Positions 2,668 through 37,912 of a DNA stretch of 38,456 nucleotides are shown here, piece after piece. Source of the DNA: a virus; the IMG/VR virus record IMGVR_UViG_3300028610_001711, positions 1 through 38,456 of that record, one strand, 5' to 3'. Position 1 is the first letter of the stretch. Every line of letters begins with the position of its first letter. Position numbers and translations under genes: made by a program. The notes below the pieces were generated by a model. The model saw only the letters and a program-made list of their open reading frames with translations, was not told the DNA's origin and did no database searches.

Positions 2668-2669
2668 TT

Positions 2670-8612: not shown

Positions 8613-8641
8613 TTGTAATAAAGAATTAATTGTTGTATAAT
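8613..8641 (+). promoter_or_regulatory. Sigma-70-like promoter inside the array
   Basis: TTGTAA (8613-8618), 17 bases, perfect TATAAT (8636-8641), 30 bases before the membrane-protein gene. Upstream at 8594-8606 lies CCTTATAATTTAT, the reverse complement of part of the array leader. It would restart transcription midway through the array. Confidence 0.5.
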
Positions 8642-8670
8642 GGTGATAACAGTGTTATTAGAGAATTGAT

Positions 8671-9696: not shown

Positions 9697-9715
9697 CACC
9701 GGGGGGTAAGGCCAA

Positions 9716-11220: not shown

Positions 11221-11225
11221 AAACT

Positions 11226-12181: not shown

Positions 12182-12549
12182 TAAAAGATCTTGACTTAAC
12201 TGATGATTATCTTTGGTATAATCCGGTTAACGAGAAGTATCTCACCATAGAGTATTTGACTGAACCACCACCCACCATTAAGGAATTTAGTGAAGTAGAG
12301 CAAAAGCACCTATGGGGATTTGCTTGGGTAGATAAACCAGTAATCACTACATGGATTAGTTTTAAAGGAAAGGAAGCTGATAAGTTAACTACTTTCATAT
12401 CACAAAACCCGGATGGAAAACACGGAATGTTTGTTCCCTTCAAGTTTGTGAGAATTAGGGAAGGGGTTAATATAATCTCAGTTGATCATATACTGAGCGT
12501 GTCCTTCGCAGTTGCTAATTTAGACGATATTGGGGGATTGCATTTGTAA
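12172..12549 (+). CDS. DFVNAF-family paralogue M20
   Basis: A 125-residue protein; the ATG at 12178 overlaps the TGA of M19 in the usual ATGA way and may be the real start, giving 123 residues. DYLWYNPVNEKYLTIEY is block A, GFAWVDKP block B, GMFVPFKFV block C. Block D is weak (VDHILSVSFAVAN). Polar loop EPPPTIKEFSEVEQ between A and B. Confidence 0.78.
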   Translation: MAMIKDLDLTDDYLWYNPVNEKYLTIEYLTEPPPTIKEFSEVEQKHLWGFAWVDKPVITTWISFKGKEADKLTTFISQNPDGKHGMFVPFKFVRIREGVNIISVDHILSVSFAVANLDDIGGLHL

Positions 12550-12578
12550 TCTGGATTTTGTACTGGGATTAAGCTATA

Positions 12579-13061
12579 ATGGCATTTGACAAAGACGCGA
12601 AAATTAGAGAGAAATCAATGACATTTATTCCAAATACGTGGGTTAAAGAAACCTCGGACAACACTTATACCCTTTATCATATGGATAAAGAAGCTCATTT
12701 ATCTCTACAGTTACCAGAGGGCGTGTATACTTGGGGTGGAGAGGATATGCTTCAGTCTTGGGATGGAAAGGACACATTTCAGTTTTTTACTGATATGGAA
12801 ATTGATTTTCTTACCACCATGGTACGTTCCATGATTGAGATATCTGAGGTTACACCGCCTCCTGATGAAATTGATGTTTGTGAGGAGATGCTTGGTGGCT
12901 CTGGTATGGGTATTAGAATGCTGGGGGTAGTGAAAATGATAGTTAAAACTGGATACCAACATATACGGATAGTGCCCGGAGACTTGAAACCATCGTATAT
13001 TACAAATGGGAGGATGGTTGATGTGTGGGAGCCTGATTTTCGTTACGGAATCAGGATTTAG
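12579..13061 (+). CDS. DFVNAF-family paralogue M21
   Basis: A 160-residue protein. YTLYHMDKEAHLSLQ is block A, YTWGGEDMLQSW block B, HIRIVPGDLKPSY block C and WEPDFRYGIRI block D. The middle is longer than in other members (an acidic, Met-rich stretch with EVTPPPDEIDVCEE). It is preceded by a 29-base gap that contains TATAAT directly at the ATG, too close to serve as its promoter. Confidence 0.78.
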   Translation: MAFDKDAKIREKSMTFIPNTWVKETSDNTYTLYHMDKEAHLSLQLPEGVYTWGGEDMLQSWDGKDTFQFFTDMEIDFLTTMVRSMIEISEVTPPPDEIDVCEEMLGGSGMGIRMLGVVKMIVKTGYQHIRIVPGDLKPSYITNGRMVDVWEPDFRYGIRI

Positions 13062-13063
13062 TT

Positions 13064-13735
13064 ATGGATATGTTTACAGTTGTGATAACATGGCAAGTTT
13101 GGCTGACTGCCATTGTAATATCTGTGATAGTTTTTATTGGTCTTCGGGTAAAGAAACGACCGACAGGAGCCGTTCAGGAGAAAAGAGTATACCCCATAAA
13201 GCAGAAAGTATTGGATGCTAAGCCAGAATCTCCCTATTCTGTATACGAAGGGTATGCTCTGTATTGCACAAACAAAGATATGTATTTACGGTGTATTGAC
13301 AATTCAACTTACGACTGGGTAGAGACTTTAAGAGATGCGGAAGACTTTTTCTTGAAGGCAGATGGTGAACCAAAACCAGTTTGGCACTTTCACAAAGCAA
13401 TATCAAATTTCGTTGGGTCACTGCACTGTGTGCTAGTTCCATGCAAATTATATACAAAAAATTATCCAAATTATATACCATTTGCTTATTTTAAGAATAT
13501 GACTTATCGTGGTAGATTCACTGAACCAGATTTTAATAAATCAATGGATTTCCACGTGTATTATGAAAGAATGATAGAAGAAAGCAGTGTGCCTGAAGAA
13601 GCAATAGTGTCTTCCAGTATAAGCACCTCACTGAGCAACCCCTTGTCTAAGAAGTCGGGGCCACCAAGACCACGACCACCCCCACCCCCAAGACCACGAC
13701 CAATACCCCCAAAATCAAGAATAATTAATAATTAA
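13064..13735 (+). CDS. DFVNAF-family paralogue M22, membrane-anchored with a polyproline tail
   Basis: A 223-residue protein. Residues 3-25 (FTVVITWQVWLTAIVISVIVFIG) form a membrane helix, followed by a basic KKRP stop-transfer patch, so the core faces the cytoplasm. The core reads EGYALYCTNKDMYLRC, YDWVETL, FVGSLHCVLVPCKLY and MDFHVYYE. The last 35 residues hold two PPRPRP stretches, a run of five Pro and a basic end, a form used to bind SH3-, WW- or profilin-like partners in eukaryotes and as stiff spacers in bacteria. Plausibly a tethered effector. Confidence 0.8.
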   Translation: MDMFTVVITWQVWLTAIVISVIVFIGLRVKKRPTGAVQEKRVYPIKQKVLDAKPESPYSVYEGYALYCTNKDMYLRCIDNSTYDWVETLRDAEDFFLKADGEPKPVWHFHKAISNFVGSLHCVLVPCKLYTKNYPNYIPFAYFKNMTYRGRFTEPDFNKSMDFHVYYERMIEESSVPEEAIVSSSISTSLSNPLSKKSGPPRPRPPPPPRPRPIPPKSRIINN

Positions 13736-13736
13736 T

Positions 13737-14291
13737 ATGAGCATGATGAAGAGAATACATAAGAAAAGGAAACTTGGGAAACTTGTGAAAATCAACAAAC
13801 CGGTGTACAAGGATACTTTCCTTTCTGAAAGGCCGGAAGAGAATGATAAGGGAGTGGCGATAGCCCGTGGTAATCTATTATACAATACAGAAACAGATAA
13901 GTTTTTGAATACAGTGAATGGGAAGGTTGGTGGAGAATTTTCTTGGGAAGCCCAGAGTGCTTATTTTATATCAACTAGAAACACTGGTTCCGCAGATGAA
14001 AAAGAATTTAACAGGATTGTAAAATTTATCACACCAGAAGAGGGAATACAGTCAGTAATAGTGCCAGTAACCACATATAGACTACGAAGAACGGCATTTA
14101 CATATGAAGTGTATGTGGAAAGAAATTTTGGGTTGGCCTTTGCTTATGTAAAGTTTATACAAGAACAGGCAAGTGAAGGTGTAGCAGGCGATAATGATCC
14201 ACTTAATCAACGAACACTTATTGGTTTTGATCCCGCGCAGGATGGTGCGGATATAACGGTAATGTGTATCGGGATATCAGGTGAAATGTAG
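13737..14291 (+). CDS. DFVNAF-family paralogue M23
   Basis: A 184-residue protein. A very basic head (MKRIHKKRKLGKLVK) precedes RGNLLYNTETDKFLNTV (block A), FSWEAQSAYFI (block B), SVIVPVTTYR (block C) and VERNFGLAFAYVKF (block D). About 45 residues follow block D, ending in the hydrophobic DITVMCIGISGEM. The core pairs best with M19, M22 and M26. Confidence 0.8.
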   Translation: MSMMKRIHKKRKLGKLVKINKPVYKDTFLSERPEENDKGVAIARGNLLYNTETDKFLNTVNGKVGGEFSWEAQSAYFISTRNTGSADEKEFNRIVKFITPEEGIQSVIVPVTTYRLRRTAFTYEVYVERNFGLAFAYVKFIQEQASEGVAGDNDPLNQRTLIGFDPAQDGADITVMCIGISGEM

Positions 14292-14299
14292 AGTAAATT

Positions 14300-14659
14300 A
14301 TGAATACTAGTACGCCCATAGCAAAAAAACGGTTTGCCATTTATCATCTTGGAATGAAAAAATTTCTGTTCATGTTGAGGGAAACACCGCATGGTAGCCC
14401 ATTTACATGGATGCCAAGCAATGGGATATTCTTCACGTTAAATCAAGAGAACATTAGTTCATTTATCGGCTACTTACATAACGATAAGTATAGTAAGATA
14501 GGAACTGTGTGTATTTGGGTGATAAATTTTCTACGAAGGGAAAATAGTTGGAAAGATATTATGGTAGTTCCCTTGGATTTGTTGGAAGTTGGGAGTGATG
14601 AAGTAAACCTGTATGCACCGGATTATGACCGCAGCTATCAGCTATGGCTGGGAAAATGA
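14300..14659 (+). CDS. DFVNAF-family paralogue M24
   Basis: A 119-residue protein. RFAIYHLGMKKFLFML (11-26), FTWMPSNGIFFTL, FLRRENSWKDIMVVPLDL, and a block D reduced to PDYDRSYQLW. It has the same length and spacing as M25 and M17. The end overlaps the next start. Confidence 0.8.
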   Translation: MNTSTPIAKKRFAIYHLGMKKFLFMLRETPHGSPFTWMPSNGIFFTLNQENISSFIGYLHNDKYSKIGTVCIWVINFLRRENSWKDIMVVPLDLLEVGSDEVNLYAPDYDRSYQLWLGK

Positions 14660-14952
14660 CTAAACAGTTCTTTGTGATCTATAATCCAGAGAAGGATAAG
14701 TTTCTCTTGGATGAAACTGACCCGGAACTTCACCGCCCGTATCGGTGGGTGGTTGGCACATCTGGATGTTCCATACTGGCCATAACAGGGGACATGCTTG
14801 ATGGGTTTATTGCAAGAGAATTTGAAACGGCTAATCATATACTTGAGTTTTTGAAAAACCACTGTCCAGATGATGGTATAATGTTGATCCCGATGAATAT
14901 GATAAATGAAGACCGGGCCACGTTTGATTTCAAGCATGGGTTTAAGTTATGA
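14656..14952 (+). CDS. DFVNAF-family paralogue M25
   Basis: A 98-residue protein and the smallest full member, so it may show the minimal fold: QFFVIYNPEKDKFLLDE (block A), YRWVVGTSG (block B), a 40-residue helical middle, DGIMLIPMNM (block C), FDFKHGFKL (block D, at the very end). The ATG at 14656 overlaps the TGA of M24; an in-frame ATG at 14644 would add four residues. Confidence 0.82.
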   Translation: MTKQFFVIYNPEKDKFLLDETDPELHRPYRWVVGTSGCSILAITGDMLDGFIAREFETANHILEFLKNHCPDDGIMLIPMNMINEDRATFDFKHGFKL

Positions 14953-14965
14953 TAGGGAGAACATA

Positions 14966-15532
14966 ATGACAAGAACACGCATAGCAAGAGTAATGCCTAA
15001 AGTGGTTACCGAAATCAGGCGTGGCTATGTTCTTTTTTGCACAGATACGGACAAATTTATGACATATACACCATATACTCACCCGTCATTTTTCTGGGTA
15101 GATGAAACTAGGTATCTGATTAACGAAAATATTATTGACACCGCAAGATGCGTGCTTAGAACATCATCGTTTCAAGCATTTTTGGGTGAGGATAACGTCG
15201 TGTTGGTACCAACTGTGGGGTACTATGGGCCAGATTTACGTAATAAAGCCGGGGATGGGACGCAACGGGATGTGTTTTTTGAGATAGATTTCAGACATTC
15301 GTTTGATATGTGGAAGGAAATACCAAAGATAAAAATGGCACCGGTTCTTAGTAAAAAGTTGAAACACAGTTCGAAGATGTTTTCTGGGCTCAAATTGGAC
15401 GGTATTGAATGGGATTTCACTAAGGGAGTTTCCCCGCATAATAGGCTTGACTCTATTAATATTCTTGACAAGTGGGCACATGACTCTCCACACTTCGATT
15501 TAAACGAGTCAAATGTCCCCGACAACGATTGA
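14966..15532 (+). CDS. DFVNAF-family paralogue M26
   Basis: A 188-residue protein. The ATG at 14966 follows AGGGAGAA; the start at 14906 lies inside M25. RGYVLFCTDTDKFMTY (block A), FFWVDETRYLI (block B), FLGEDNVVLVPTVGYYG (block C), FEIDFRHSFDMW (block D). About 70 further residues contain two more acidic-aromatic stretches (GIEWDFTKGV and SPHFDLNES), which may be decayed repeats of block D or a separate small domain. Confidence 0.82.
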   Translation: MTRTRIARVMPKVVTEIRRGYVLFCTDTDKFMTYTPYTHPSFFWVDETRYLINENIIDTARCVLRTSSFQAFLGEDNVVLVPTVGYYGPDLRNKAGDGTQRDVFFEIDFRHSFDMWKEIPKIKMAPVLSKKLKHSSKMFSGLKLDGIEWDFTKGVSPHNRLDSINILDKWAHDSPHFDLNESNVPDND

Positions 15533-15581
15533 GCATTGTGGATTTTACATCCCATTAGTTTGACAAAATTAGGTGAGAATA

Positions 15582-15956
15582 ATGGAACATCAAAAAGGGT
15601 TTATTTTATACAATTTAAGCAATGAGATGTATCTTGGAAGGTCACTAGCGGCAACCAGTGGGGATACCCACAGATGGGTAAGTGACACGCCCCTGTTACT
15701 ATGTGAGAACGCCTTGGACATGTTATTTAACATCAATTCGTTTATTCCACGGTCACGGTTTCCTAATATGAAAAATACTGAATTTAATGATCATGTCAAG
15801 GAGATTAGGCGGGAAACAAAGTTTGTACTATCTTTTTTAAAGGAACATTCCGATATGGTCGAAATTATGGTGGTTCCAATAGATGTGGAAGGAGATGGAA
15901 CAAGCTATGATATTGATTTTGTTAAAGCTTTTAAATTTGATGTAAATATGGTATAA
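15582..15956 (+). CDS. DFVNAF-family paralogue M27, last of the array
   Basis: A 124-residue protein starting at the ATG at 15582, with AGGTGAGAA at 15571-15579. KGFILYNLSNEMYLGR (6-21), HRWVSDTPLLL, FLKEHSDMVEIMVVPIDVEG, IDFVKAFKFD. It is closer to M17 and M25 than to its neighbour M26, so subfamilies are interleaved along the array. Confidence 0.83.
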   Translation: MEHQKGFILYNLSNEMYLGRSLAATSGDTHRWVSDTPLLLCENALDMLFNINSFIPRSRFPNMKNTEFNDHVKEIRRETKFVLSFLKEHSDMVEIMVVPIDVEGDGTSYDIDFVKAFKFDVNMV

Positions 15957-15989
15957 TAAAAGATGAAGAAAAGTAATCAGGAGAGTAAC

Positions 15990-16280
15990 GTGGATAAAAG
16001 ATATGGTGTTTGGTGCTTTTCAGAACGCGATTTTGAGAATGGTGCCGATATAAGCTACAGTAATGCCATGGGTTTGGCCTTGTTTTGTGTCGAGGAAGAT
16101 GAATTTGGCGTGAAAAATTTTGCTGTTATAGCGATGGACGATAACAAAAACCCCATTTGGCATGAAATGATATGGTGTGGTCAGTTCCATGGATATGATT
16201 TCTTGTACAGAGAATGTATTCGTCTGGGTGAGATTTCAGAACGCGAAGGTTTTGATCCCGAGGATATAGTGTTTATCTAA
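15990..16280 (+). CDS. Small protein of unknown function after the array
   Basis: A 96-residue protein if the GTG at 15990 is the start (CAGGAGAG just upstream); an ATG at 15963 would add nine polar residues but has no ribosome-binding site. TATAAT at 15952-15957 may be a -10 box. It is acidic, with two-strand stretches (GLALFCVEEDEF, FAVIAMDDN) and WHEMIWCGQFHGYDFLYREC. It does not show blocks A-D. The next ATG follows its TAA directly. Confidence 0.7.
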   Translation: MDKRYGVWCFSERDFENGADISYSNAMGLALFCVEEDEFGVKNFAVIAMDDNKNPIWHEMIWCGQFHGYDFLYRECIRLGEISEREGFDPEDIVFI

Positions 16281-16619
16281 ATGAGTTCCCCACCCACATC
16301 TTTAAAAAATATCCACGAATTAAGTCAATTTTTGGATCTAATACACAAAACCCTCGAAAAGGTGGAAGGTGAGGGTTTTGTGGTATATGACGTTTTTGAT
16401 GATTCTTATATGGAAGACGGTGGTGAGATTTACTTCAATAAGGACCAATTGGCCAAGTTCTTGTGTGATCTTGGTGATCATTTATCTAATGTGGTAGTGT
16501 ATGGTTTGAGTGAAACTGGTATTGATTGCACCAAGCCACTTTTGTATGGAAAGAACATAATTGAAGCTCTTGACATAGTATTTAATAACTTGGTAGATAT
16601 GATAAACAAAAGGAACTAA
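16281..16619 (+). CDS. Second paralogous set, member N1
   Basis: A 112-residue protein. GFVVYDVFDDSYMEDGG, FNKDQLAKFL, NVVVYGLSE and KPLLYGKNIIEAL define a pattern repeated in the next two genes and at 18229: h-h-V-Y-D-x(3)-[DE]-x-F/Y, F-[ST/N]-K-x-[EQ]-[LV], V-V-V-[YF], then P-x-h-x-G-[ST]-K. The opening strand recalls block A of the DFVNAF family, so this may be a distant branch. Function unknown. Confidence 0.75.
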   Translation: MSSPPTSLKNIHELSQFLDLIHKTLEKVEGEGFVVYDVFDDSYMEDGGEIYFNKDQLAKFLCDLGDHLSNVVVYGLSETGIDCTKPLLYGKNIIEALDIVFNNLVDMINKRN

Positions 16620-16632
16620 TTGGACTACCCTA

Positions 16633-16986
16633 ATGATTAGCTTAAAAAGAGATTATTTACAAAGCTTTTTCGCTGATGATAAGGGGAAAACCATCTTTGT
16701 TGTTTACGATATAAATCGAGATGATTTTCTGGCCAATGGTGCCCTTGGTAAATATTTTACTAAAAGGGAACTGGTAAGTTTCTTATCAAATATTGAGTTA
16801 GAAACTGTGGTTGTGTATCCAAATAATGAGTATGAGGAACGCCCAGATTTTAGATTTCCAATAATGGGTACTAAATTATTCAAGGGTATACAAGAACTTG
16901 AAAATGAGTTGATGAGACATTCTCCGCACGAATCAAGTTTAATGGGGATTCCACGTATTCCGCCGGGAGTAAACCGGAGTGAGTAA
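16633..16986 (+). CDS. Second paralogous set, member N2
   Basis: A 117-residue protein: IFVVYDINRDDFLANG, YFTKRELVSFLSNI, ETVVVYPNNEYEE and FPIMGTKLFKGIQEL in the same order as N1. A Pro-rich end (GIPRIPPGVNRSE) follows. It overlaps N3 by eight bases. Confidence 0.75.
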   Translation: MISLKRDYLQSFFADDKGKTIFVVYDINRDDFLANGALGKYFTKRELVSFLSNIELETVVVYPNNEYEERPDFRFPIMGTKLFKGIQELENELMRHSPHESSLMGIPRIPPGVNRSE

Positions 16987-17347
16987 ACAGGCCATATTGG
17001 ATCATCTTGATATTCAAAGCAATTCCGAACTGTTTGTCATATATCGACTAAGTGGTGATATTTTTGAATCGGATGACAAAGAAAATTTAACCCTTTTTTC
17101 AAAGGAGCAAGTATGTGCTAGGATGTTGTCTGGCCCATTCCCTGACATGGTAGTTTTTGAAATAAACAATGATCGTGTTATTAACTATCTTTCCCCAGCG
17201 ATTATTGGCTCCAAGTTTGTTGAAGACATCGATTCCACCCAAGACATTGGTTCGTGGGATGTTTCGTTTGTTACCACTATAGATGCTATATTTAAAAATT
17301 GCTCTGTTTTCAGCCAAGATATTAACAGTTGGAAAACGGGGGCGTAG
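16979..17347 (+). CDS. Second paralogous set, member N3, fused to a BspA/DUF285-type repeat
   Basis: A 122-residue protein with a GTG start at 16979 (CGGAG overlaps the end of N2). Residues 18-85 follow the N1 pattern: LFVIYRLSGDIFESDD, LFSKEQVCARML, DMVVFEINN, SPAIIGSKFVEDI. The last 34 residues (DIGSWDVSFVTTIDAIFKNC, then SVFSQDINSWKTGA) match the DUF285/BspA repeat, whose usual form is DIxxWDxSxVTxMxxMFxxCxxFNQDIxxW. DUF285 occurs in bacterial surface proteins as long arrays; a single copy at the end of a small phage protein suggests capture of a fragment, or the stump of a once longer protein. Confidence 0.72.
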   Translation: MSKQAILDHLDIQSNSELFVIYRLSGDIFESDDKENLTLFSKEQVCARMLSGPFPDMVVFEINNDRVINYLSPAIIGSKFVEDIDSTQDIGSWDVSFVTTIDAIFKNCSVFSQDINSWKTGA

Positions 17348-17351
17348 GTAA

Positions 17352-17705
17352 ATGAGCGACATCGAGAAGATACATGAAGGGTTCAGGCTTGTTGAATTTA
17401 AACATGATAGACCACACACCCTTTTTCATGGCATAAATAGATCTAGAGTGTTGAACGTTGGTGAATGGATTGAGGCTGATGTGAAACGTGTAAATGATAA
17501 TGGTGGACAGAGCTACATGGGTGGGTTTCACTTTCTTTATAATCTGGATGAAATTCGGGAGTATATGGAACGGTTTACTGCTCCACGAGATTTGCGTGTG
17601 GTACGAATGTTGGCAAAGGATGTTTGGCCGAAACCAACAAACCCCGTAGTATTCTTAAGCCGGTGGATGTTTTTGGAAAACGACTTCCAGAGGTTGTCTA
17701 CATGA
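17352..17705 (+). CDS. Hypothetical phage protein
   Basis: A 117-residue protein, basic, with a GFRLVEFKHDRPHTLFHGIN opening, GEWIEADVK, and GGFHFLYNLDEIREYMERF. The order suggests an alpha/beta fold, with two short strands carrying His residues. I recall phage proteins of similar build but cannot name a function. It starts four bases after N3 and its TGA overlaps the next ATG. Confidence 0.7.
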   Translation: MSDIEKIHEGFRLVEFKHDRPHTLFHGINRSRVLNVGEWIEADVKRVNDNGGQSYMGGFHFLYNLDEIREYMERFTAPRDLRVVRMLAKDVWPKPTNPVVFLSRWMFLENDFQRLST

Positions 17706-18232
17706 TGATAGTTTTGCCAACAAGTGATGACATGATCGCGTTGGCCAAGATAAGAGCAAAGAAGATGCCCCGGTTAAGGAACTCAATCAGGAACGGCGGG
17801 GGGAACGTTGTAGGCTGTTTAGGGGAGATAGCACTCAATGATTTATTAATAGGGGACTTAGTTAGTCACGAGTGCATAGATTATGACATTATGTACCGTG
17901 GCGGTACGAAGATTGAAGTTAAGACAAAAGACACCACAGTTGAACCACAAGCAGATTTTGAAGCAAGTCTCAATAATCACAACACCAAACAGCGTTGTGA
18001 TGTCTATGCATTCTGTAGAGTGAAGAAAGATCTTAGTATAGCATGGTTATGTGGTATGATTAGGAAACAAAACTTTTTAAAACAGTCTAGGTTCCTTAAA
18101 AAGGGACAAAGGGACGGTAGTAACGGTTATATCGTCAAAGCTAATTGCTGGAACATGTATCACTATGACTTAGAGATACCTCAAAAGTTAGTTGAGTATG
18201 CAATGGAGCGTGGATTTAGGGTGATAGAATGA
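17702..18232 (+). CDS. PD-(D/E)XK-type nuclease-like protein
   Basis: A 176-residue protein from the ATG at 17702 (AGAGG upstream; the start at 17624 lies inside the previous gene). CLGEIALNDLL supplies a conserved Glu on the first helix, then IDYDIMYRGGTKIEVKTKD fits the PD-(D/E)XK core: Asp, a strand and E-V-K. RCDVYAFCRV and a Trp-rich strand follow, as in other members of this fold. Members act as endonucleases or as DNA repair and resolvase enzymes. No DNA-binding domain is evident. The stop overlaps the next ATG. Confidence 0.6.
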   Translation: MMIVLPTSDDMIALAKIRAKKMPRLRNSIRNGGGNVVGCLGEIALNDLLIGDLVSHECIDYDIMYRGGTKIEVKTKDTTVEPQADFEASLNNHNTKQRCDVYAFCRVKKDLSIAWLCGMIRKQNFLKQSRFLKKGQRDGSNGYIVKANCWNMYHYDLEIPQKLVEYAMERGFRVIE

Positions 18233-18552
18233 TACCACCAGCTCCTTGGTCAAGTGATGTGTTGTCGTCTCGACATACGATAATGGAATATTACACGAAA
18301 TTTTTCGCTCCTTTCGGAAATAATGTACTTTTTGAGGTTTATGATGTATCTACAGAATCCTTTGTGATATTTCACGGTAACGAACGTTCCAAATTAATGA
18401 ACAAAGGAACAATAATAGAAAATTTAACTGATTTATCTTTAATAAAGTCACCCCTCTTTTTAGATATAATCATTTTAATATACAACACTACCAACATTGA
18501 TTTCGACAATCCGGTTTTTATCGGAAGTAAGGACGCGTATAAAGATGGATAA
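18229..18552 (+). CDS. Second paralogous set, member N4
   Basis: A 107-residue protein with VLFEVYDVSTESFVIFHGNE, LMNKGTIIENL, DIIILIYNTT and NPVFIGSKDAYKDG, the N1-N3 order. It is separated from N3 by two unrelated genes, so the set was split by insertion or rearrangement. The end overlaps the next gene by eight bases. Confidence 0.7.
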   Translation: MIPPAPWSSDVLSSRHTIMEYYTKFFAPFGNNVLFEVYDVSTESFVIFHGNERSKLMNKGTIIENLTDLSLIKSPLFLDIIILIYNTTNIDFDNPVFIGSKDAYKDG

Positions 18553-19036
18553 CTACATTCGTGGGTCAGATATAGAACAAAAGTATGTAATCTATGATAC
18601 AGCACGGGACAAGTATATTAAGACAAAACTAATTGGCGATGGGGACATGCTAGAAATACATTACGTAGAAAATGTGCAGGATGCCACCTTCTGTAACAGT
18701 ATGGCGGAAGTGGCTAAAGATTTAGAGCAAGCTGGTATTGCGATAACCAGTAAAATTAAGATCATAGGGATTAGTATATCATTAATCATCACCCCGGATT
18801 TCATTATAGACTATTCCCATAAAGTTAAGAAATCAGCAGAGGCAGATTTTAAACCTGTTCCCCGAGATCCTGCTTTGGAAAAACTAGAGAAGGAGATTAA
18901 GGAGGCACAGGGGGAAATGATAGATAAATATCAGGAGCAATTGCGGGAGGAAATAAAAAAACGTCATGAAGAAAACATGGCTGGAGGGGCTGGAGCGTAT
19001 AATCCCTCCGATATTTCTACAAACAAATTCCTGTGA
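18545..19036 (+). CDS. Block-A-bearing protein with a coiled-coil tail
   Basis: A 163-residue protein; the ATG at 18545 is preferred to the start at 18497 inside N4. QKYVIYDTARDKYIKTKL resembles block A of the array, and ENVQDATFCNSMAEVAKDLE continues with an A-T-F strand plus helix. Residues 110-150 form a charged coiled coil (LEKLEKEIKEAQ...QEQLREEIKKRHEE). A Gly-rich end closes it. Probably a scaffold-like relative of the array proteins; function unknown. Confidence 0.7.
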   Translation: MDNYIRGSDIEQKYVIYDTARDKYIKTKLIGDGDMLEIHYVENVQDATFCNSMAEVAKDLEQAGIAITSKIKIIGISISLIITPDFIIDYSHKVKKSAEADFKPVPRDPALEKLEKEIKEAQGEMIDKYQEQLREEIKKRHEENMAGGAGAYNPSDISTNKFL

Positions 19037-23376: not shown

Positions 23377-23401
23377 GATGCTCCGTTTTAGGGGCATTTT
23401 T
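23377..23401 (+). terminator. Rho-independent terminator
   Basis: ATGCTCC pairs with GGGGCAT around a GTTTTA loop, followed by five Ts. It overlaps the leader of the macro-domain gene, whose ATG follows at 23402, so the hairpin could also control that gene's translation. Confidence 0.7.
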
Positions 23402-23851
23402 ATGTCATTCACTATAATCAAAAAAGATATCACCACAGTCGAACTCGGTGTGATTCTACAGGGCGTAAATTGTCAACACGTTATGGGTTCCGGTGTAGCT
23501 TTGGCCATCAAAACTAAATGGCCAGAAGTATATGATGCCTTCATTAACACCCATCCGAGGGATCGTAGACTTGGCAATGTCAATATAATCAAGCTGGGGG
23601 AATCCCTGTGGGTTTTCAACTGTTTTACCCAAGTATTCTATGGAAGGGATGGTAAACGGTATGCCAGCTTAGGGGGCATCTCAGAGACCGTCATGAAGGG
23701 TTTTATTTTCGCCAAAGTCAATAAACTCCCAGTATTCATGCCAAAAATAGGATGTGGTCTTGGTGGTCTTGATTGGGAATCAGAAGTTGAACCAATTATT
23801 GAAGAACTCCGTGATAAATATCAAGTTTTAGTGACCATATGTGAAAAATAG
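23402..23851 (+). CDS. Macro-domain protein (ADP-ribose binding or processing)
   Basis: A 149-residue single macro domain. The ATG at 23402 follows the terminator; the ATG at 23378 is part of the hairpin. VILQGVNCQHVMGSGVALAI (about 18-37) is the substrate loop with the conserved Asn and the Gly-rich GSGVA. MPKIGCGLGGLDWESEVEPI (about 113-132) is the second phosphate-binding loop. Such proteins bind ADP-ribose or remove it from proteins, DNA or ADP-ribose-1''-phosphate. In a phage it could reverse ADP-ribosylation by host defences such as DarT, by analogy with DarG, but substrate choice cannot be read here. Confidence 0.85.
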   Translation: MSFTIIKKDITTVELGVILQGVNCQHVMGSGVALAIKTKWPEVYDAFINTHPRDRRLGNVNIIKLGESLWVFNCFTQVFYGRDGKRYASLGGISETVMKGFIFAKVNKLPVFMPKIGCGLGGLDWESEVEPIIEELRDKYQVLVTICEK

Positions 23852-30594: not shown

Positions 30595-32463
30595 TCATAT
30601 TGCATACTTAGCTTCTAATTCTTCTTGTACTGCTGTAATATTTGCTCCCGATAAATCAGAAGTAAATACTACCAATTCAAATAAAGCACCTTCAATAGAT
30701 ATAGAATTATCATAATTTGTAAGAATCGTACCAAGATCCCAATTGTTTGATCCAGCATCACCAGTCACGTTACCGAGATCAGATATTGTAAATTTACTTG
30801 TTGCATCCCCTCTAAATTCAGAAGTAAATAATCGAGCATTTATATCATATGTTTGAGCTGAACGTAAATATGTACCCGCCCACATATACCATTCATCATT
30901 ATTACCATCTTCTGTAGCTATTGAAACAATATTTCCTGAATCAGAACGATTATGCCAGATAACTGTGATTGCTGATGGGCTTGAATTTGATGGTTTAAAT
31001 ACTGTAAATACAACAAATGGTTCACCAATATCAATACCACTCGTTGTTTCTAATCCCGCAGATCCAGAAGAACTAACACCTGTATGACCATTTAATGTAG
31101 ATGTAGTGAGATTTGCTCCTGTTCCAACTACAACATCAAAATCACCAGCAGAACCAGCAGAACCAGAATTAGTCCATTCTGTAACTGGTGCACTTCCTAC
31201 AATTCCTTCTTCTTTATACCAATATGCAGGATCGAGATCTGCAATAGCTGAGGGGACTGTTGGTGTTGGCGTATTAGTTGGTGTAACAACCGGTGTATCA
31301 GTCGCTGAAACTGTTGGTGTAGCCGTAGTTGTTGGTGTAACAGCCGGAGTATCCGAAACAGTAGCTGTTACCGTTGGTGTAGCCGTAGTTGTTGGTGTAA
31401 CAGCCGGAGTATCCGAAATAGTTGGTGTTACTGTTGGTGTCACTGTGGATGTGACCGTAACTGTTGGTGTAACAGCCGGAGTATCCGAAATAGTTGGTGT
31501 TACTGTTGGTGTCACTGTGGATGTGACCGTAACTGTTGGTGTTACTGTTGATGTCATTGTTGGTGTTACTGTTGATGTGACCGTAACTGTTGGTGTTACT
31601 GTTGATGTGACCGTAACTGTTGGTGTCACGGTGTTGGTTGGTGTTTCTGTAGTTGTTGGTGAAGGAGTGTTTGTGGGTTGTGGTGATGGCTCCTCAGTAC
31701 TCGTTGGGGTAACTGTTGATGTAGGAGTAGGAGTATTTGTAACTGTCACCGTTGGTGTCACCGTGATTGTTGGTGTCACGGTGTTGGTTGGTGTAACAAC
31801 CGGTGTATCCGAAATTGTCGGAGTGACGGTTGGTGTAATAGTTACTGTGGCTGTAACAGTTGGTGTAATAGTTGGTGTTGCCGTAGTTGTTGGTGTTGCC
31901 GTAGTAGTTGGTGTCACCTCTGGTGTAACGGATGGTATAACAGATGTGGTTGGTGTAATTGTTGGCGATATCGGGGGTGCTGTCAAACTAGGAGTAACCG
32001 TGGGGGTTGCTGGCTGGTCAGTAAAGCATCCACCGCCACCCTGTACATTAGTATCCTCATCTTCTACGGATTGTGGTATAGCAACATTCTGTGTAATTTG
32101 CAGTGCAACCCAAGAAGTTTTAAAGAATTCCTTAAATTCTTTTTTATTCACAAATGCATCATTAAGAACTTGAAAGAAAATGTGGTTTACATCTTCAACT
32201 TGAAAACTATCATATATTGCTTGCATGGTAGCAACGATATCTTCTGGGGTAGAGAAGTTGACATTGTTATTAACGAAGGAGTCAATATCAATCCCACTAA
32301 ATTCCCTAGTAGAATCAGTTAAGATACCAATAACAGTAGATTGTGCTAAATCAGGATCAACAAAAATCTGATCATTACCTAATCCAAAACGAGTGTCAGC
32401 ATCAAACCCTGCATCATACAGGATTCGTTCTAATGATGGTAATGTTTTGGATCTATCAGTCAT
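30595..32463 (-). CDS. Thr-Pro-rich adhesin / fibre-like protein with a lectin-type C-terminus
   Basis: A 622-residue protein. A folded head (1-135) contains SFVNNNVNFSTPEDIVATMQ and other helical stretches typical of a virion attachment part. Residues 150-405 are a mucin-like run of PT(V/I)T(V/A/P)T repeats. The C-terminal 215 residues, from LDPAYWYKEEG to EELEAKYAI, read as a concanavalin/LamG-type beta sandwich (FVVFTVFKPSNSSPSAITVI, LFELVVFTSDLSG). It likely binds a host surface glycan. The antisense strand is open too because of the repeat. A CATAAATA octamer lies 25 bases upstream. Confidence 0.75.
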   Translation of the reverse strand: MTDRSKTLPSLERILYDAGFDADTRFGLGNDQIFVDPDLAQSTVIGILTDSTREFSGIDIDSFVNNNVNFSTPEDIVATMQAIYDSFQVEDVNHIFFQVLNDAFVNKKEFKEFFKTSWVALQITQNVAIPQSVEDEDTNVQGGGGCFTDQPATPTVTPSLTAPPISPTITPTTSVIPSVTPEVTPTTTATPTTTATPTITPTVTATVTITPTVTPTISDTPVVTPTNTVTPTITVTPTVTVTNTPTPTSTVTPTSTEEPSPQPTNTPSPTTTETPTNTVTPTVTVTSTVTPTVTVTSTVTPTMTSTVTPTVTVTSTVTPTVTPTISDTPAVTPTVTVTSTVTPTVTPTISDTPAVTPTTTATPTVTATVSDTPAVTPTTTATPTVSATDTPVVTPTNTPTPTVPSAIADLDPAYWYKEEGIVGSAPVTEWTNSGSAGSAGDFDVVVGTGANLTTSTLNGHTGVSSSGSAGLETTSGIDIGEPFVVFTVFKPSNSSPSAITVIWHNRSDSGNIVSIATEDGNNDEWYMWAGTYLRSAQTYDINARLFTSEFRGDATSKFTISDLGNVTGDAGSNNWDLGTILTNYDNSISIEGALFELVVFTSDLSGANITAVQEELEAKYAI

Positions 32464-32487
32464 AATTTAAATTCAATATAATTATAT

Positions 32488-32495
32488 TATTTATG
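32488..32495 (-). promoter_or_regulatory. T4-type late promoter octamer CATAAATA
   Basis: One base off TATAAATA, on the minus strand, 25 bases before the ATG at 32463, and next to an ATATAATTATAT palindrome. Confidence 0.5.
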
Positions 32496-32496
32496 G

Positions 32497-33621
32497 CTAT
32501 GCACCACCAAATGTAATACCACTTATCCACCCAGTGCAATTATCAACTGGTGTTCCGCCAGCACCAATTGCTATTTCAAGAGTCCATTGTGTATCTGCTT
32601 CCCCTGCACCACTAATCGGATCGTAAACGCAACGATTTCCCCACTCTATGGAACCACTAGCTGGCATTTGTATCCAAGCACTATATATTCCTGTTTTAGA
32701 ACCAGTTACATACCATTCAGCCGTAACTATTACTCTAAACCAATAAATTGTTGGATCTGCTGGCGGTGTTGTATTCAACCAAGTAGATGGAAAATTATCA
32801 GAATAAGAAACATGTGGTGGATTGTCAATTGGTGTAATTATTGTACCGTTTGAATTAAATCTAACCCACGTAAGCATGGTACCAGCATCTGAACGATTAC
32901 CGGTTACGTAATAACTACCACCATTTAATGGCAATGGTTCTGTTGGGGTTGGTGTAACTGCTGGTGTTCCCGGTGGTGTTGCTGTTGGTGTTGGTGTAGA
33001 AGTTACTGCCGGTGTAGAAGTTACTGCCGGTGTTGGCGAACTTGTGACTGTCACTGTTGGGGTTGGTGTTAGTGATGATGCCGGTGCCGGTGTTGCTGTT
33101 GCTGTCACTTGGGCCGTCGGTGTCACCGTCTCCGTTGGTGTCACTGTTGGCGTGACTGCTGGCGAACCACCCGGTGTTCCCGGTGGAGTACTTGCTGGTG
33201 TATTTGGTGGTGTATTTGGTGGTGTTCCCGGTGGTGTTCCCGGTGGTGTATCAGTTGGTGTCACAGTGGACGTGGCTGAAAATGTTGGTGTCACAGTGGA
33301 CGTGGGAGTTACCGTGGGTGTTACAGTAGAAGTTTGTGTATTTGTTGGGGTAAGAGTAGGGGTTGGCGTAACTGTACTCGTTTCTGTTACTGTATTTGTT
33401 GGTGTCACCCAGTCTGTTATTACTGATTCTGAAAAATCAACCAATAGCTGGGTACCAACATCAAATGGATTATTAGATGCTGCATCAGGATCTACAAAGT
33501 TGTATTGCTCAAGTATCTCCAAAATTTTGGTATGATACGGCTTAACTTCATTGAAATATGTTATAAATGATTGTATGGGTGTAGAAATCCCAGAATCTTC
33601 TGCACCGGTATTATCAGTCAT
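32497..33621 (-). CDS. Second Thr-Pro-rich virion protein
   Basis: A 374-residue protein. The head includes ITYFNEVKPYHTKILEILEQYNFVD; VKPYHTKI is a motif I recall from structural proteins of large tailed phages. Residues 75-225 are TPT repeats, here mixed with PGTPPGTPPNTPPNTPASTP (Pro/Gly-rich). The C-terminal 145 residues form a beta-rich domain (YVTGNRSDAGTMLTWVRFNS, WNxx-like WGNRCVYDP). Same plan as its neighbour but with unrelated ends, so head and tip were exchanged around a common linker. Exact late octamer 25 bases upstream. Confidence 0.75.
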   Translation of the reverse strand: MTDNTGAEDSGISTPIQSFITYFNEVKPYHTKILEILEQYNFVDPDAASNNPFDVGTQLLVDFSESVITDWVTPTNTVTETSTVTPTPTLTPTNTQTSTVTPTVTPTSTVTPTFSATSTVTPTDTPPGTPPGTPPNTPPNTPASTPPGTPGGSPAVTPTVTPTETVTPTAQVTATATPAPASSLTPTPTVTVTSSPTPAVTSTPAVTSTPTPTATPPGTPAVTPTPTEPLPLNGGSYYVTGNRSDAGTMLTWVRFNSNGTIITPIDNPPHVSYSDNFPSTWLNTTPPADPTIYWFRVIVTAEWYVTGSKTGIYSAWIQMPASGSIEWGNRCVYDPISGAGEADTQWTLEIAIGAGGTPVDNCTGWISGITFGGA

Positions 33622-34162: not shown

Positions 34163-35209
34163 TCACTGCAAAAAATTATAATTTTTCAACATGAACTCTC
34201 TAAGGCGAAGCTTGGCTTCAAAATCATAATAGGTCTTATCTACTATTGTCTTGAGTACGTACAGTTTGCCAAATTTATTTATAGATTTACATATATCAGT
34301 ACAGGGCAGTGTATCTGGGAGAGAGATACCCCACCCAAGGTCAATGGCTTGTTGAGCTAGGTTCATTCCATCTTTATTATAGTCAGGGATAACTACTTTG
34401 TTCCTTCTAGATCTATCCAGAAGCAATACCTTACCCTTTTTCATAGCGTTTGCAAGTACGGCCACACCATTGACATGCCATGAATCAAAAAACCCTTCTG
34501 TTATATACAATGGGATTTCTGGGTCACTCACATACAAATTATCCATCCCAAACATGACAGACTGGCTATCCTCTATGGTTACAGTGATGTATTTTTTGAC
34601 ACTCTCACCAACGAATATCCTCGCTTGCCAGTAAATCATGCGGTCATTGTAATATGATGGTATAATAATTCTTGGCCGGAGAGACCTAGATAAATGTATA
34701 TCCCCATCTAAGGTAGAGTTGGTCTTCCCCGTGGATAAGAAAAACGGATAATCGTCTTGGGTCATCTTGTATTTTTCCCACAAGAAATCCCTAGCCTCCT
34801 CTGCCAATATGTCATCGTCATCGAATTTGTTCATTAGTTTGAAGAAGTCTGGTATGGGTAAGTTGGGCAAATGAACTTTTGTTGGACGCTTTAGAACTTT
34901 GCCTTTCTCTGTCTTGATTTTTGAGGTAATAAGGGCATTTATATCCTTGGGTGGTATACCAAAAGAACGGAAGATGTCGTACATATTCTTAGAATGTGGA
35001 GAATCACGGGTTGGATCAAAATTACCATCTATGCCACAATTAAAGCAGTTGTAGAAGCATATGTCCTCTTCAAACAACCATCCTCCACGAGGTCCCTTGG
35101 TATGCGTACCATCACCACAAACCTCACAAAATATCTTGTTCCAGCCCTTAGCTGATGGAGAATGTACGAGAGGCACATGAGTTCGTACTATGTCTTCGAT
35201 AGTATCCAT
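34163..35209 (-). CDS. DNA primase, T4 gp61 type
   Basis: A 348-residue protein, close to the 342 of T4 gp61. The zinc ribbon is C28-x2-C31 (CEVCGDG), then a GGW strand and C55-x2-C58 (CFNCG). The Toprim domain is marked by YITEGFFDS (catalytic Glu) and VVIPDYNKDG (Asp pair). It makes RNA primers for the lagging strand together with the replicative helicase gp41, whose gene is not in this window. Like gp61 it lacks an own helicase domain. No late octamer is seen upstream, fitting an early replication gene. Confidence 0.85.
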   Translation of the reverse strand: MDTIEDIVRTHVPLVHSPSAKGWNKIFCEVCGDGTHTKGPRGGWLFEEDICFYNCFNCGIDGNFDPTRDSPHSKNMYDIFRSFGIPPKDINALITSKIKTEKGKVLKRPTKVHLPNLPIPDFFKLMNKFDDDDILAEEARDFLWEKYKMTQDDYPFFLSTGKTNSTLDGDIHLSRSLRPRIIIPSYYNDRMIYWQARIFVGESVKKYITVTIEDSQSVMFGMDNLYVSDPEIPLYITEGFFDSWHVNGVAVLANAMKKGKVLLLDRSRRNKVVIPDYNKDGMNLAQQAIDLGWGISLPDTLPCTDICKSINKFGKLYVLKTIVDKTYYDFEAKLRLREFMLKNYNFLQ

Positions 35210-35269: not shown

Positions 35270-35938
35270 TTAGGTTTTGGGTTTGGGTTTTGAGTTTTTC
35301 TCAATCACTTCTTCTTCATCTATATCATAGTTAAATTCGACAATTTTATCATCACCGCGTTGCTTAAGGCGCTCTATAAGTTCTACTGAACCAAACCAAA
35401 AATCTTTATCCTCACAGACGGCCTGTATTTCCTCCTCTGTAAGGAAATCCTTATAAAAGGAATGAGCAAGGTCCTTAAAATATTTCTCTGAGAATTTAAC
35501 TCTCTTAGCTACTTCACCACCCTTACCAATCGCGCCGTGGCTATAGTTATGAATCATAAAGGAACAATTGTCATTGACAATATAATAGTCCCCGGAGAGA
35601 AATATGAATGTCCCGGCTGAACATACCTCACCTTCTATGACGGTAGTAATTTCCGCCGGGGACTTGGAAATAGCTGATATTATCTGAATAGTGGTATTTA
35701 AATCACCGCCCGGTGTGTTAAGATAAATGAATATTTTATCATGTGGTTCAGATGTTTTGATGATGTTGAGCATGTCAACATATCTGTCAACTTCATCACT
35801 TATTTCCCCTGTGAGGTAGAAATGGTGTATGGTTACTGGGATTACTTGAGTATAATGCTTTATGGACTTTTCTTCCAAAAGACCACTTAATAACGGTAAT
35901 GCACTTAAAATCTCGTCTTCCTCAGAATTTGTCATCAA
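35270..35938 (-). CDS. ClpP-like serine protease
   Basis: A 222-residue protein with the ClpP core. IYLNTPGGDL (71-80) is the oxyanion strand, GEVCSAG (103-109) holds the nucleophile Ser 107, MIHNYSHG (128-135) the His 130, and EDKDFWFG (176-183) the Asp 179. The triad is complete. The C-terminus is longer and more charged than in bacterial ClpP. It could make a phage peptidase barrel or join host ClpX or ClpA. It lies directly downstream of, and in line with, the tmRNA, whose tag ends ALAA, a ClpXP signal. Confidence 0.82.
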   Translation of the reverse strand: MMTNSEEDEILSALPLLSGLLEEKSIKHYTQVIPVTIHHFYLTGEISDEVDRYVDMLNIIKTSEPHDKIFIYLNTPGGDLNTTIQIISAISKSPAEITTVIEGEVCSAGTFIFLSGDYYIVNDNCSFMIHNYSHGAIGKGGEVAKRVKFSEKYFKDLAHSFYKDFLTEEEIQAVCEDKDFWFGSVELIERLKQRGDDKIVEFNYDIDEEEVIEKNSKPKPKT

Positions 35939-35971
35939 ATGGATCTCCTAGATATCTTTGGCTGATAAAAA

Positions 35972-35979
35972 TATTTATC
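35972..35979 (-). promoter_or_regulatory. T4-type late promoter octamer GATAAATA
   Basis: One base off, 34 bases before the ATG of the ClpP-like gene, inside the perfect inverted repeat CTGATAAA...TTTATCAG (35962-35981). Confidence 0.45.
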
Positions 35980-36021
35980 AGATCGGAATGCGAGTGAAAA
36001 TTTTTCGAAATTAAACCTCCT

Positions 36022-36051
36022 AAAATCAAACGGCCCCAAAGGAGCCGTTTG
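36022..36051 (-). terminator. Terminator of the tmRNA
   Basis: On the minus strand CAAACGGCTCC pairs with GGGGCCGTTTG around a TTT loop, an 11-base-pair stem with one G-U, followed by ATTTT. It ends the tmRNA transcript before the ClpP-like gene. Part of the stem may double as a tmRNA pseudoknot element. Confidence 0.75.
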
Positions 36052-36312
36052 GCAGAAACTTGGGTAATAAGGCTTTCCAAACCCCAGAAAATTATGCAGC
36101 AAGAGCGAACTCTTCTTCAAAATCTTCGGTATAGCTTTCATCATTTGCAGATGTTTTATTTCTCGATATACGGCTCTTGAAACCGGATAGCCCAATAACC
36201 TATTCATCCCCTGTCGAAACCAAGGTCACCCCCATAAAAATATGCTTGGTGGAGGTGGAGGAAATCGAATCCTCGTCCAGAGCAACTTTCAATTAGAAAG
36301 TTTACTATCATT
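36025..36312 (-). ncRNA. ssrA: Circularly permuted (two-piece) tmRNA
   Basis: Read on the minus strand. First comes the acceptor piece: hairpin AACTTTC/GAAAGTT, then CTCTGGAC, the T arm GAGGA-UUCGAUU-UCCUC (36258-36274), CACCUCC (36251-36257) and ACCA ending at 36247. A 13-base spacer follows, then the coding piece from 36233: GGGGGUG, UUCGAC and the tag frame. GGGGGUG pairs fully with CACCUCC, and the third pair is G-U, the alanyl-tRNA synthetase identity pair. CAGGG can pair with CUCUG as helix P2. The tag frame (36092-36148) encodes ANDESYTEDFEEEFALAA and stop. This order, 3' part before 5' part, is that of permuted tmRNAs, which are cut into two pieces. It rescues stalled ribosomes and tags the product for proteolysis. 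Confidence 0.92.
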
Positions 36313-36319
36313 AAGTTAT

Positions 36320-36348
36320 ATATTACACCATGCAAAAAGGTTTGTCAA
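36320..36348 (-). promoter_or_regulatory. Strong sigma-70 promoter of the tmRNA
   Basis: TTGACA (36343-36348), 17 bases, TAATAT (36320-36325), read on the minus strand. Transcription should begin near 36312, directly before the acceptor-piece hairpin. Host polymerase can read it without phage factors. Confidence 0.8.
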
Positions 36349-36360: not shown

Positions 36361-36624
36361 CTAACTCACATGAAGTAAACTGTCAATAGATATCTCCTCA
36401 AATGAATCCCATTTACCTATATCAGTGATTTTGCGTTGCTCGGTATCTACCATTTCACCAGTCCCATGCCCAAAATCGTAATGGGCAATCTCATTTTCCT
36501 CATAAAAAACATGTACGGTGTCTGTTTCCTTCTCCAATTTGTATGTTAACTCATATGGATAGTGCGTAATAACAGCTCTGGCCCAATCTGCGAATGTTGT
36601 TTGGTGGTTACCGCTCATTCTCAT
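36361..36624 (-). CDS. Small hypothetical protein upstream of the tmRNA
   Basis: An 87-residue acidic protein with a helical front (TTFADWARAVITHYPYELTY) and strands (TVHVFYEENEIAHYDFG). It overlaps the end of the Acb1-like gene by four bases, so it is coupled to it. Its end lies 12 bases before the tmRNA promoter. Function unknown. Confidence 0.68.
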   Translation of the reverse strand: MRMSGNHQTTFADWARAVITHYPYELTYKLEKETDTVHVFYEENEIAHYDFGHGTGEMVDTEQRKITDIGKWDSFEEISIDSLLHVS

Positions 36625-37124
36625 TTGTACTTACCATCTAATGCTAATTCTTCTTCGTATTCCCTGTCTATCTCCAGAGAGCCAAGAAGCTCCCCCATGT
36701 TGTGGCCCTTATAGTCAAAATCCCCACAATCATAAGATAATGTCATATGTGGGATAAACTCAGGGAAATCATAGGTAGCCTTGTGTTCATCCATGATTTC
36801 TTCGTGTCTATTAACGAGATCTGGGGCATCCATTATCACCACCAGAACGTTATTTTCCTCATCACCACTAGAAAAAATGTCCAGCTTTTTAGCCTTGATC
36901 TCAATTGGATCATCCAACTTTCCGCGTGGTTTGAAATCAGGAAGATGCTTACTAGAATGAATGACAGTCAGATGTATCTCTGATTCTTCAACTGGTTCAG
37001 GCACATTCAATTTTTCAATTACATCCAAAACCTTTTCTATTGACTCTTTAGAAAGTCTAACCCCGACGTATGTTCCCTTCTTTGGGGATTGCTTTTTTTC
37101 AGTTACGATTTGGGATAATTTCAT
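36621..37124 (-). CDS. 2H phosphoesterase, Acb1-like (anti-CBASS candidate)
   Basis: A 167-residue protein. Two His-x-Thr motifs, IHLTVIHS (47-54) and PHMTLSYD (126-133), mark the 2H phosphoesterase fold. The layout (TYVGVRLSKES at the front, RHEEIMDEHKATYDFPEFIP before the second motif, EYEEEL near the end) agrees with my memory of T4 57B/Acb1, which hydrolyses the cyclic nucleotide signals of CBASS defence. It opens with MKLSQIVTE, like other late proteins here. It starts one base downstream of the next gene's end. Confidence 0.7.
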   Translation of the reverse strand: MKLSQIVTEKKQSPKKGTYVGVRLSKESIEKVLDVIEKLNVPEPVEESEIHLTVIHSSKHLPDFKPRGKLDDPIEIKAKKLDIFSSGDEENNVLVVIMDAPDLVNRHEEIMDEHKATYDFPEFIPHMTLSYDCGDFDYKGHNMGELLGSLEIDREYEEELALDGKYK

Positions 37125-37125: not shown

Positions 37126-37395
37126 TCACTTCACCGAATCCTCTTCCGTTATGGGAACTAATATGTTCCCATATAACTCAACTATCTTCTCAACCAACAC
37201 ATCAACGGTGCCTTCATCTCTTTCAAGCAAGGCAGTTTGCATGTTTCTACCATGTGTGTATCTTTGGGTTTCAGATCTATGGGTGCTTATTGACAAATAA
37301 AAGTTCCCTTGATCATAGGCAACAGAGTATACTAAATCCTCTCCCAAACGCTCAATTAACTTTTTATGTAGAATCAGCGTGTCTTTAAATTTCAT
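37126..37395 (-). CDS. Small hypothetical protein
   Basis: An 89-residue protein starting MKFKDTLILHKKL, with AAGGAAAC upstream of the ATG. LVYSVAYDQGNFYLSIST and LVEKIVELYGNILVPI suggest a small alpha/beta fold. The last residues (TEEDSVK) end one base before the Acb1-like gene starts, and its start overlaps the DHFR gene. Confidence 0.65.
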   Translation of the reverse strand: MKFKDTLILHKKLIERLGEDLVYSVAYDQGNFYLSISTHRSETQRYTHGRNMQTALLERDEGTVDVLVEKIVELYGNILVPITEEDSVK

Positions 37396-37912
37396 TTTGT
37401 TTCCTTTTGTAACATTCGTATATTAAACTGGAACCTAATTCTGATGGTTGTGACGTTTCTATTTTAAAGTCTTTGCCCACACTATTGGCACGCCATGAAT
37501 CAAAAATACCAGTGAGAGATACATCACAGCGATAATATCCCGGTATTCTAGTAATATATACGTGGTCGGCAAAGGATAGTCCATCCGTGTAAATAGACTC
37601 ACCACCAATAAGGAATATAGACTCATTTGTGGCCAATTTGAGAGCCTCTGGGAGGCTTTTAGCTAGTTCCGCACCCATTGTTATCAGTTCGGGGTTGCGG
37701 CTCACAACGATGCTCTGACGGCCTTTGAGAAGGGCTTTACGCTCTCCAAGCACCTTCACCATGCTATCGTATGTTTTCCTGCCCATAATACAGGTAGAAC
37801 CCTTTGTTGTTTTAGCAAAAAACTGCATATCTTCCTTGAAATGCCAAGGAATACCACCATCTTTACCTATGCCTAGAGCATCATCAATCGCCACTATTAT
37901 CGATATCGTCAT
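37385..37912 (-). CDS. Dihydrofolate reductase
   Basis: A 175-residue protein from the ATG at 37912 (GAGGAGAA upstream); longer in-frame starts up to 37975 lie inside the previous gene. IIVAIDDALGIGKDGGIPWHFKEDMQFF (first 32 residues) holds the active-site acid D29 and the Met20-type loop, CIMGRKTYDSM (41-51) and SRNPE the NADPH site, and FLIGGESIY the Gly-Gly pair. It reduces dihydrofolate for thymidylate synthesis, as T4 Frd does. No thymidylate synthase is in the window. Confidence 0.88.
   Translation of the reverse strand: MTISIIVAIDDALGIGKDGGIPWHFKEDMQFFAKTTKGSTCIMGRKTYDSMVKVLGERKALLKGRQSIVVSRNPELITMGAELAKSLPEALKLATNESIFLIGGESIYTDGLSFADHVYITRIPGYYRCDVSLTGIFDSWRANSVGKDFKIETSQPSELGSSLIYECYKRKQNEI

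Follow-up and report, generated by a model that had tools for sequence, protein, structure and literature searches.

A circularly permuted two-piece tmRNA gene, directly followed on the same strand by a clpP gene, is carried by the phage sequence analysed here, a linear IMG/VR virus record taken in full (38,456 bases; the window). Phage permuted tmRNAs and phage ClpP proteins are each known, and the new part is the location of the tmRNA gene just upstream of a phage clpP. This linkage recurs in several phage lineages and gene contexts. Judging from the sequence, there is roughly an even chance (about 0.5) that the window holds a working two-piece tmRNA gene followed by clpP, with the tag RNA and the peptidase coupled in the way proposed below. 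The original prediction for this DNA read the tmRNA correctly, but missed what is of greater interest, the clpP gene that follows immediately downstream.

The tmRNA gene lies on the minus strand, as do all the elements described for it. ARAGORN called a single permuted tmRNA, with the precursor at 36001-36339, the coding part at 36148-36092 and the tag ANDESYTEDFEEEFALAA*. In cmscan, full models were matched above their cut-offs by both RF04321 (tmRNA_permuted, 36309-36092, 117.7 bits against a cut-off of 47, E 1.5e-22) and RF01850 (beta_tmRNA, 36362-36026, 110.2 bits against a cut-off of 84), which upholds the claim of a complete circularly permuted tmRNA on a phage. Sequence reading and the Rfam alignment place the acceptor piece at 36247-36309, where the P2 5' strand GATAG is followed by the T-arm (36274-36258), the acceptor 3' strand CACCTCC (36257-36251) and the ACCA end (36250-36247), the last three from direct reading. 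Between ACCA and GGGGGTG sits a 13-nt intervening segment (36234-36246) that is probably absent from the mature two-piece RNA and that measures 11-194 nt in relatives. The coding piece (36092-36233; direct reading, ARAGORN and Rfam) contains the acceptor 5' strand GGGGGTG (36233-36227, direct reading), TGGTTTCGAC (36222-36213), the P2 3' strand CTATC (36190-36186), the tag codons (36148-36095) and the stop TAA (36094-36092). As had been predicted, the CCA-ended half precedes the GGGGGUG half on one strand, the order of a permuted tmRNA, and the acceptor helix is paired at 7/7 positions including G3-U70, so that the alanine identity pair is intact. The tRNA-like domain thus has both G3-U70 and a CCA end, with stems that are compensated in relatives, while the tag frame is open, has its stop and finishes in a hydrophobic tail ending in AA. 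The whole RNA folds better than 200/200 dinucleotide shuffles (z -3.06).

The flanking signals are less certain. A promoter-like TTGACA-17-TAATAT sequence with 10/12 consensus bases (36320-36348, minus strand) is present upstream of the tmRNA, but an own promoter is plausible only, since the five promoter-like sites found in the region are not clearly above the 2.6 (sd 1.5) expected by chance. Similarly, the 11-bp 3' hairpin described as a terminator (36027-36051, minus strand) is real, strong and well folded and corresponds to the last hairpin of RF01850, but its U-tract is short and poor, and the claim of a terminator is weak; an intrinsic-terminator scan did not report it, the tail ATTTTA being too short. 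The presence of only four T in this tail, together with the absence from the scan, makes read-through into the next gene possible. That gene is clpP, which begins 54 nt after the ARAGORN limit of the tmRNA, counted to the open frame, or 160 nt after the tag stop. Sequence reading also revealed an 8-bp perfect inverted repeat, CTGATAAA-TATT-TTTATCAG (35962-35981, minus strand), immediately before the clpP ribosome-binding site.

The recurrence of the linkage was examined in ClpP loci fetched with a ClpP profile, four of whose six seeds (the window, L024, L025 and L040) came from tmRNA-bearing contigs; the contigs that the profile returned were not selected for tmRNA. Infernal found a permuted tmRNA above the cut-off in 17 of 50 ClpP contigs (the window's population included), a set chosen mainly as the longer contigs and later extended by five (L058, L079, L110 and two more) once ARAGORN had shown a tmRNA in three of them. 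All 17 tmRNAs lie on the strand of ClpP, and nine are located 0.16-1.3 kb upstream of it: 160-311 nt in five cases (the window's population, L051, L052, L059 and L062) and 0.99-1.3 kb in four more contigs. The control consisted of 50 contigs selected by a different phage gene, that of the 5'-nucleotidase NT5C. When the window's population is left aside, permuted tmRNAs are present in 16/49 ClpP contigs and 3/50 control contigs (p=0.0007), at densities of 8.2 and 1.0 per Mb, respectively; half of these tmRNAs (8/16) lie within 1.3 kb upstream of ClpP, and all 16 share its strand. Neighbourhoods are wholly conserved within a clade, and such contig counts are therefore not independent. ARAGORN alone, applied to all fetched loci without any selection of this kind, gave a tmRNA in 10/78 ClpP loci, two of the ten being one-piece tmRNAs, and in 0/78 control loci (p = 0.0007).

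A second type of ClpP has a tmRNA upstream in 51 of 80 loci, mostly at 0.8-2 kb; its seeds were taken from tmRNA-bearing contigs, so what this set shows is that the arrangement persists, not its unbiased frequency. Taking all ARAGORN cases together, the tmRNA is on the same strand in 64/64 and upstream in 61/64. In a FastTree phylogeny of 169 ClpPs, the sequences with the linkage fall into about five clades, and at least 13 changes of state are required to explain their distribution. Four gene contexts were distinguished: DHFR-Acb1-x-tmRNA-ClpP-primase, as in the window; tmRNA-x-SleB hydrolase-ClpP; tmRNA and ClpP separated by several genes; and tmRNA-ClpP with different neighbours in L059. 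Within the SleB context, two very different ClpP types occupy one slot (L079, L104 and L125 versus L258, L261 and L276), as though one ClpP had been exchanged for another at a fixed position.

With the tmRNA as the starting point, the association is much narrower. ClpP occurs within 4 kb downstream in 5/37 phage tmRNA loci, these being tmRNA-pattern loci with at least 4 kb of downstream sequence, and within 4 kb upstream in 0/34. Most phage permuted tmRNAs are hence unlinked to ClpP, and the claim is limited accordingly. Random placement of the tmRNA within each contig gave a combined p = 0.001 for closeness, which is no more than suggestive of proximity to ClpP beyond chance. Among cultured phages with ClpP, XacN1, BUCT-ZZ01 and Phosso have a permuted tmRNA, but far from ClpP; a search with RF04321 found none in RAS14, ICP1_2005_A, SCTP-2 and Mel-JY01, and the tight arrangement was not found in any cultured phage.

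The low proportion of linked tmRNAs and the separation of both genes in XacN1, BUCT-ZZ01 and Phosso speak for the alternative that survives best, namely that the tmRNA functions in rescue while its adjacency to clpP is an inherited T4-like or jumbo-phage gene order and the two products do not form a unit. Tagged proteins would in that case go to the host ClpP, Lon or FtsH. The neighbouring primase, DHFR and Acb1 genes are conserved as well, as an inherited order would predict. On the other hand, the association in about five ClpP clades and in varied contexts, with the strand shared in every case and the tmRNA first in almost every one, and the enrichment of tmRNA in ClpP contigs over control contigs are harder to reconcile with inheritance of gene order, which is regarded as a serious contender falling short of likely.

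The neighbourhood also bears on the affiliation of the phage. Downstream of clpP follows a conserved neighbour, a T4/jumbo-type DNA primase gene (34163-35209, minus strand; phrog_47, 4.4e-28). Upstream of the tmRNA are found an 87-aa ORF without Pfam, PHROG or PADLOC match (36361-36624, minus strand) and a homologue of the anti-CBASS protein Acb1 (36621-37124, minus strand; PF23474, 2e-29), which is part of the conserved block, with DHFR further upstream beside these two. The Acb1 family is also encoded upstream of the tmRNA or ClpP in L051, L052, L062 and L115. The ClpP-primase order is shared with the jumbo phages XacN1 of Xanthomonas (385 kb) and RAS14 and CM1 of Stenotrophomonas (320 kb), which also provide the best matches of both window proteins. 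Given this order and these matches, the record most likely represents part of the genome of a jumbo phage related to XacN1/RAS14. Megablast of the window against phage records gave no match, and weaker DNA similarity was limited to short matches to Cellulophaga phages and S-CAM3. The exact T-arm pattern, scanned in bacterial genomes for host assignment, had no match.

Besides the tmRNA-clpP region, the window includes an array of 24 tandem paralogous ORFs of one family (2170-19036, plus strand), a large gene-family expansion with the consensus GYVLYNTETDKYLS...FKWEE...VLVPC...LDFVNAFKFD; three of these ORFs, tested against PHROG, gave no match. Inside the array, an ORF with a sigma-70 region 2 (4869-5369, plus strand; PF04542, 5.7e-9) could encode a phage sigma factor. 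A Macro-domain protein resembling the DarG antitoxin (23378-23851, plus strand; PADLOC DarG, 8.2e-15) possibly counters an ADP-ribosylating defence, and constitutes, together with Acb1, a pair of candidate anti-defence genes. Two large Thr/Pro-rich proteins with TPTVTVT repeats (30595-33621, minus strand) are encoded by genes overlapped by long open frames on the opposite strand.

The product of the gene following the tmRNA (35270-35935, minus strand, ATG at 35935) is a ClpP-type peptidase with its catalytic triad and fold intact. The protein matches PF00574 (2e-16), and its triad S105/H128/D177 (Ser-His-Asp) is invariant in 17 aligned sequences. The AlphaFold model, with a pLDDT of 82, has the ClpP fold, and Foldseek gave ClpP and ClpX-ClpP complexes as its best PDB matches. 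A relative search with this single protein returned its own population only; the profile search succeeded in finding relatives. Many phage ClpP-like proteins are annotated as head-maturation (prohead) proteases, a role assumed for the ClpP of P26059A (PMC5964084) and one that would leave the peptidase unconnected with the tag. The window protein does have weaker matches to head-maturation PHROGs, and phrog_94 (head maturation) ranks first for the second ClpP type. However, the best family of the window protein is phrog_1827, 'ATP-dependent protease' (3.8e-55, against 7e-30 for the head proteases), and its neighbours are primase, DHFR and Acb1, with no head genes among them. On the PHROG ranking and these non-head neighbours, a role in head maturation is judged unlikely.

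The tag, ANDESYTEDFEEEFALAA, has 18 codons with seven acidic residues and ends in ALAA before the stop, in ARAGORN and direct reading as in the original prediction. Its unusual character was only partly borne out: among 35 ClpP-associated phage tags that were scored, no other is as acidic (7/18, the next highest fraction being 3/12) or as long, but L115, outside this table, holds a longer, cyanobacteria-like tag of 27 codons. The acidic stretch is missing from the tags of closely linked relatives, and the tag of one of them, L051, is ANDESYAYAMAA, which suggests that the stretch was inserted in the lineage of the window. These two features, the acidity and its absence from linked relatives, would also fit a phage RNA that competes with the host tmRNA and adds a poor or different degron, sparing or diverting the tagged products. 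Against this quite improbable scenario stands the preserved C-terminal ALAA, a sequence of tags that is recognised by ClpX and ClpA, with the chain being handed to ClpP (PMC3985003); the AA ending is found in 35/35 scored phage tags. Unusual tags also occur in further groups of phage permuted tmRNAs, such as ADAELVAA (8 aa) in L002, L005, L009 and relatives, ANAFKPEVTVPMSVFADQELVAA (23 aa) in L004, L006 and L011, and ATNSDSMRKDNVLAFVPRIAVPMQMAA (27 aa) in L029. Among these, the contigs of L002, L004 and L029 were searched for ClpP, and none turned up.

To assess conservation of the RNA, 31 distinct permuted tmRNAs of phages, almost all of them on contigs with ClpP, were compared in their acceptor and T-stems. 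In these stems, 96.0% of the cells are paired, against 78.8% in shuffles, and 57 cells are changed on both sides, against 12.3 in shuffles, with 0/500 shuffles reaching as high a count; the signal is lost when the stem partners are slid out of register. Compensated changes affect the acceptor pairs 4-69, 5-68 and 6-67. G3-U70 is present in 31/31 relatives under an extraction pattern that required GGG and accepted either T or C at position 70, and the constancy of the first two acceptor pairs is therefore partly built in. Two contigs nearly identical to the window (>99.8% identity in the main alignments) are for that reason uninformative on evolution. Although ssrA pieces in prophage genomes result from integration there (PMC9004378), the idea of a non-functional host ssrA gene or fragment left by imprecise prophage excision is rejected as highly improbable, given a gene complete by ARAGORN and Rfam, a phage block conserved in divergent contigs and compensatory change in the tRNA-like domain among phage copies.

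As an RNA, the window's tmRNA is a further member of a known group, and the notability first attached to a phage-borne permuted tmRNA is reduced by the fact that such RNAs are already published (PMC9004378). Two-piece forms made up 53 of the 133 unique phage tmRNA structures in that study, 50 of the 53 being marine or aquatic, and the 2025 tmRNA database holds 79 phage tmRNA sequences (PMC11915505). With the two-piece tmRNA of Betaproteobacteria (RF01850/RF04321), the window's shares the permuted order, the acceptor helix with G3-U70, the short removed segment, the ALAA-ending tag, the 3' hairpin and the full-length model match. It differs in being on a phage and in having an 18-codon tag with an acidic insertion instead of one of about 10 codons, and its 110 bits are below the scores of other phage members, such as L031 with 185 bits. 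A complete permuted tmRNA is likewise present in aquatic phages including the OM43 methylophage Melnitz (PMC9004378), but that of Melnitz is of alphaproteobacterial affinity, and the authors connect it with a glutamine riboswitch and a gene for a late-transcription coactivator; the main text of their paper never uses 'Clp'.

XacN1 has the same ClpP-primase block as the window and a permuted tmRNA with the tag ANANTFDYALAA, unannotated, which, unlike the window's, is present in two copies, lies in a tRNA cluster and is about 50 kb or more from clpP. One copy is at L048 2202-2622 (record 37231-37530), with a GOLLD RNA about 1 kb downstream of the permuted tmRNA, and the second at 356026-356325. 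ClpP-type peptidases are also encoded by other jumbo phages (PMC7824862; Atu_ph07, PMC6102473), and phage ClpP was proposed to act on host proteins (PMC7824862); the passages located on them make no connection to tmRNA. Atu_ph07 is listed without a tmRNA and, unlike the window, encodes a ClpX and a ClpA itself. Parts of trans-translation are also carried by huge phages that have tmRNA and SmpB (PMC7162821), but there SmpB is reported among the phage genes, whereas in the window SmpB was not found and ClpP is linked instead; 'Clp' is absent from the main text of that paper too. No description of a phage tmRNA-ClpP linkage was found in the open-access literature.

The partners that such a pathway needs seem to come from the host. 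Searches of 27 records of ClpP-encoding phages, most of which also have a tmRNA and many of which are incomplete, yielded neither SmpB (PF01668) nor a ClpX/ClpA-type ATPase (PF07724, AAA_2), while both searches were positive in control genomes; for PF01668, the records without match were the window, its 47-kb relative, XacN1, RAS14 and 25 others, most of them fragments. With so many incomplete records, this absence is only suggestive. On the simplest account, the tag RNA and the peptidase would come from the phage, and SmpB, AlaRS, EF-Tu and ClpX/ClpA would be those of its host.

In the coupled mechanism proposed here, the precursor would be transcribed from the promoter at 36348-36320, and host RNase P and tRNA 3'-end enzymes would remove the 13-nt segment, leaving two pieces joined by the acceptor and P2 helices. 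The host AlaRS would charge this RNA through G3-U70 and, with host SmpB and EF-Tu, it would enter ribosomes stalled on broken or cut mRNAs. The acidic tag ending in ALAA would then be added to the stalled chains, which ClpX or ClpA of the host would unfold for degradation in ClpP chambers containing phage subunits. The joint action of tmRNA and ClpP is predicted from gene order, and transcription, processing, charging and tagging are likewise predictions for the window's tmRNA. Since broken transcripts are expected in infection, ribosome rescue and amino-acid recycling would help the phage, and a similar benefit has been suggested for tmRNA alone (PMC9004378). A more specific version, held only tentatively, is a 'tag-and-shred' cassette in which the phage tag is matched to the phage ClpP and directs stalled products preferentially into phage-supplied chambers, perhaps extending to host proteins made from cleaved mRNAs, with SmpB and the unfoldase borrowed from the host. 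Such a cassette, if real, would amount to a viral counterpart of a dedicated degron-protease pair.

The occurrence of the linkage in several lineages offers one testable answer for the roles of both the phage tmRNA and the phage ClpP. Cultured entry points with both genes, unlinked, are available in XacN1 and in BUCT-ZZ01, which grows on the laboratory strain Synechococcus elongatus PCC 7942. On this view, phages may contribute tag and peptidase to the ribosome-rescue pathway and rely on the host for SmpB and the ATPase.
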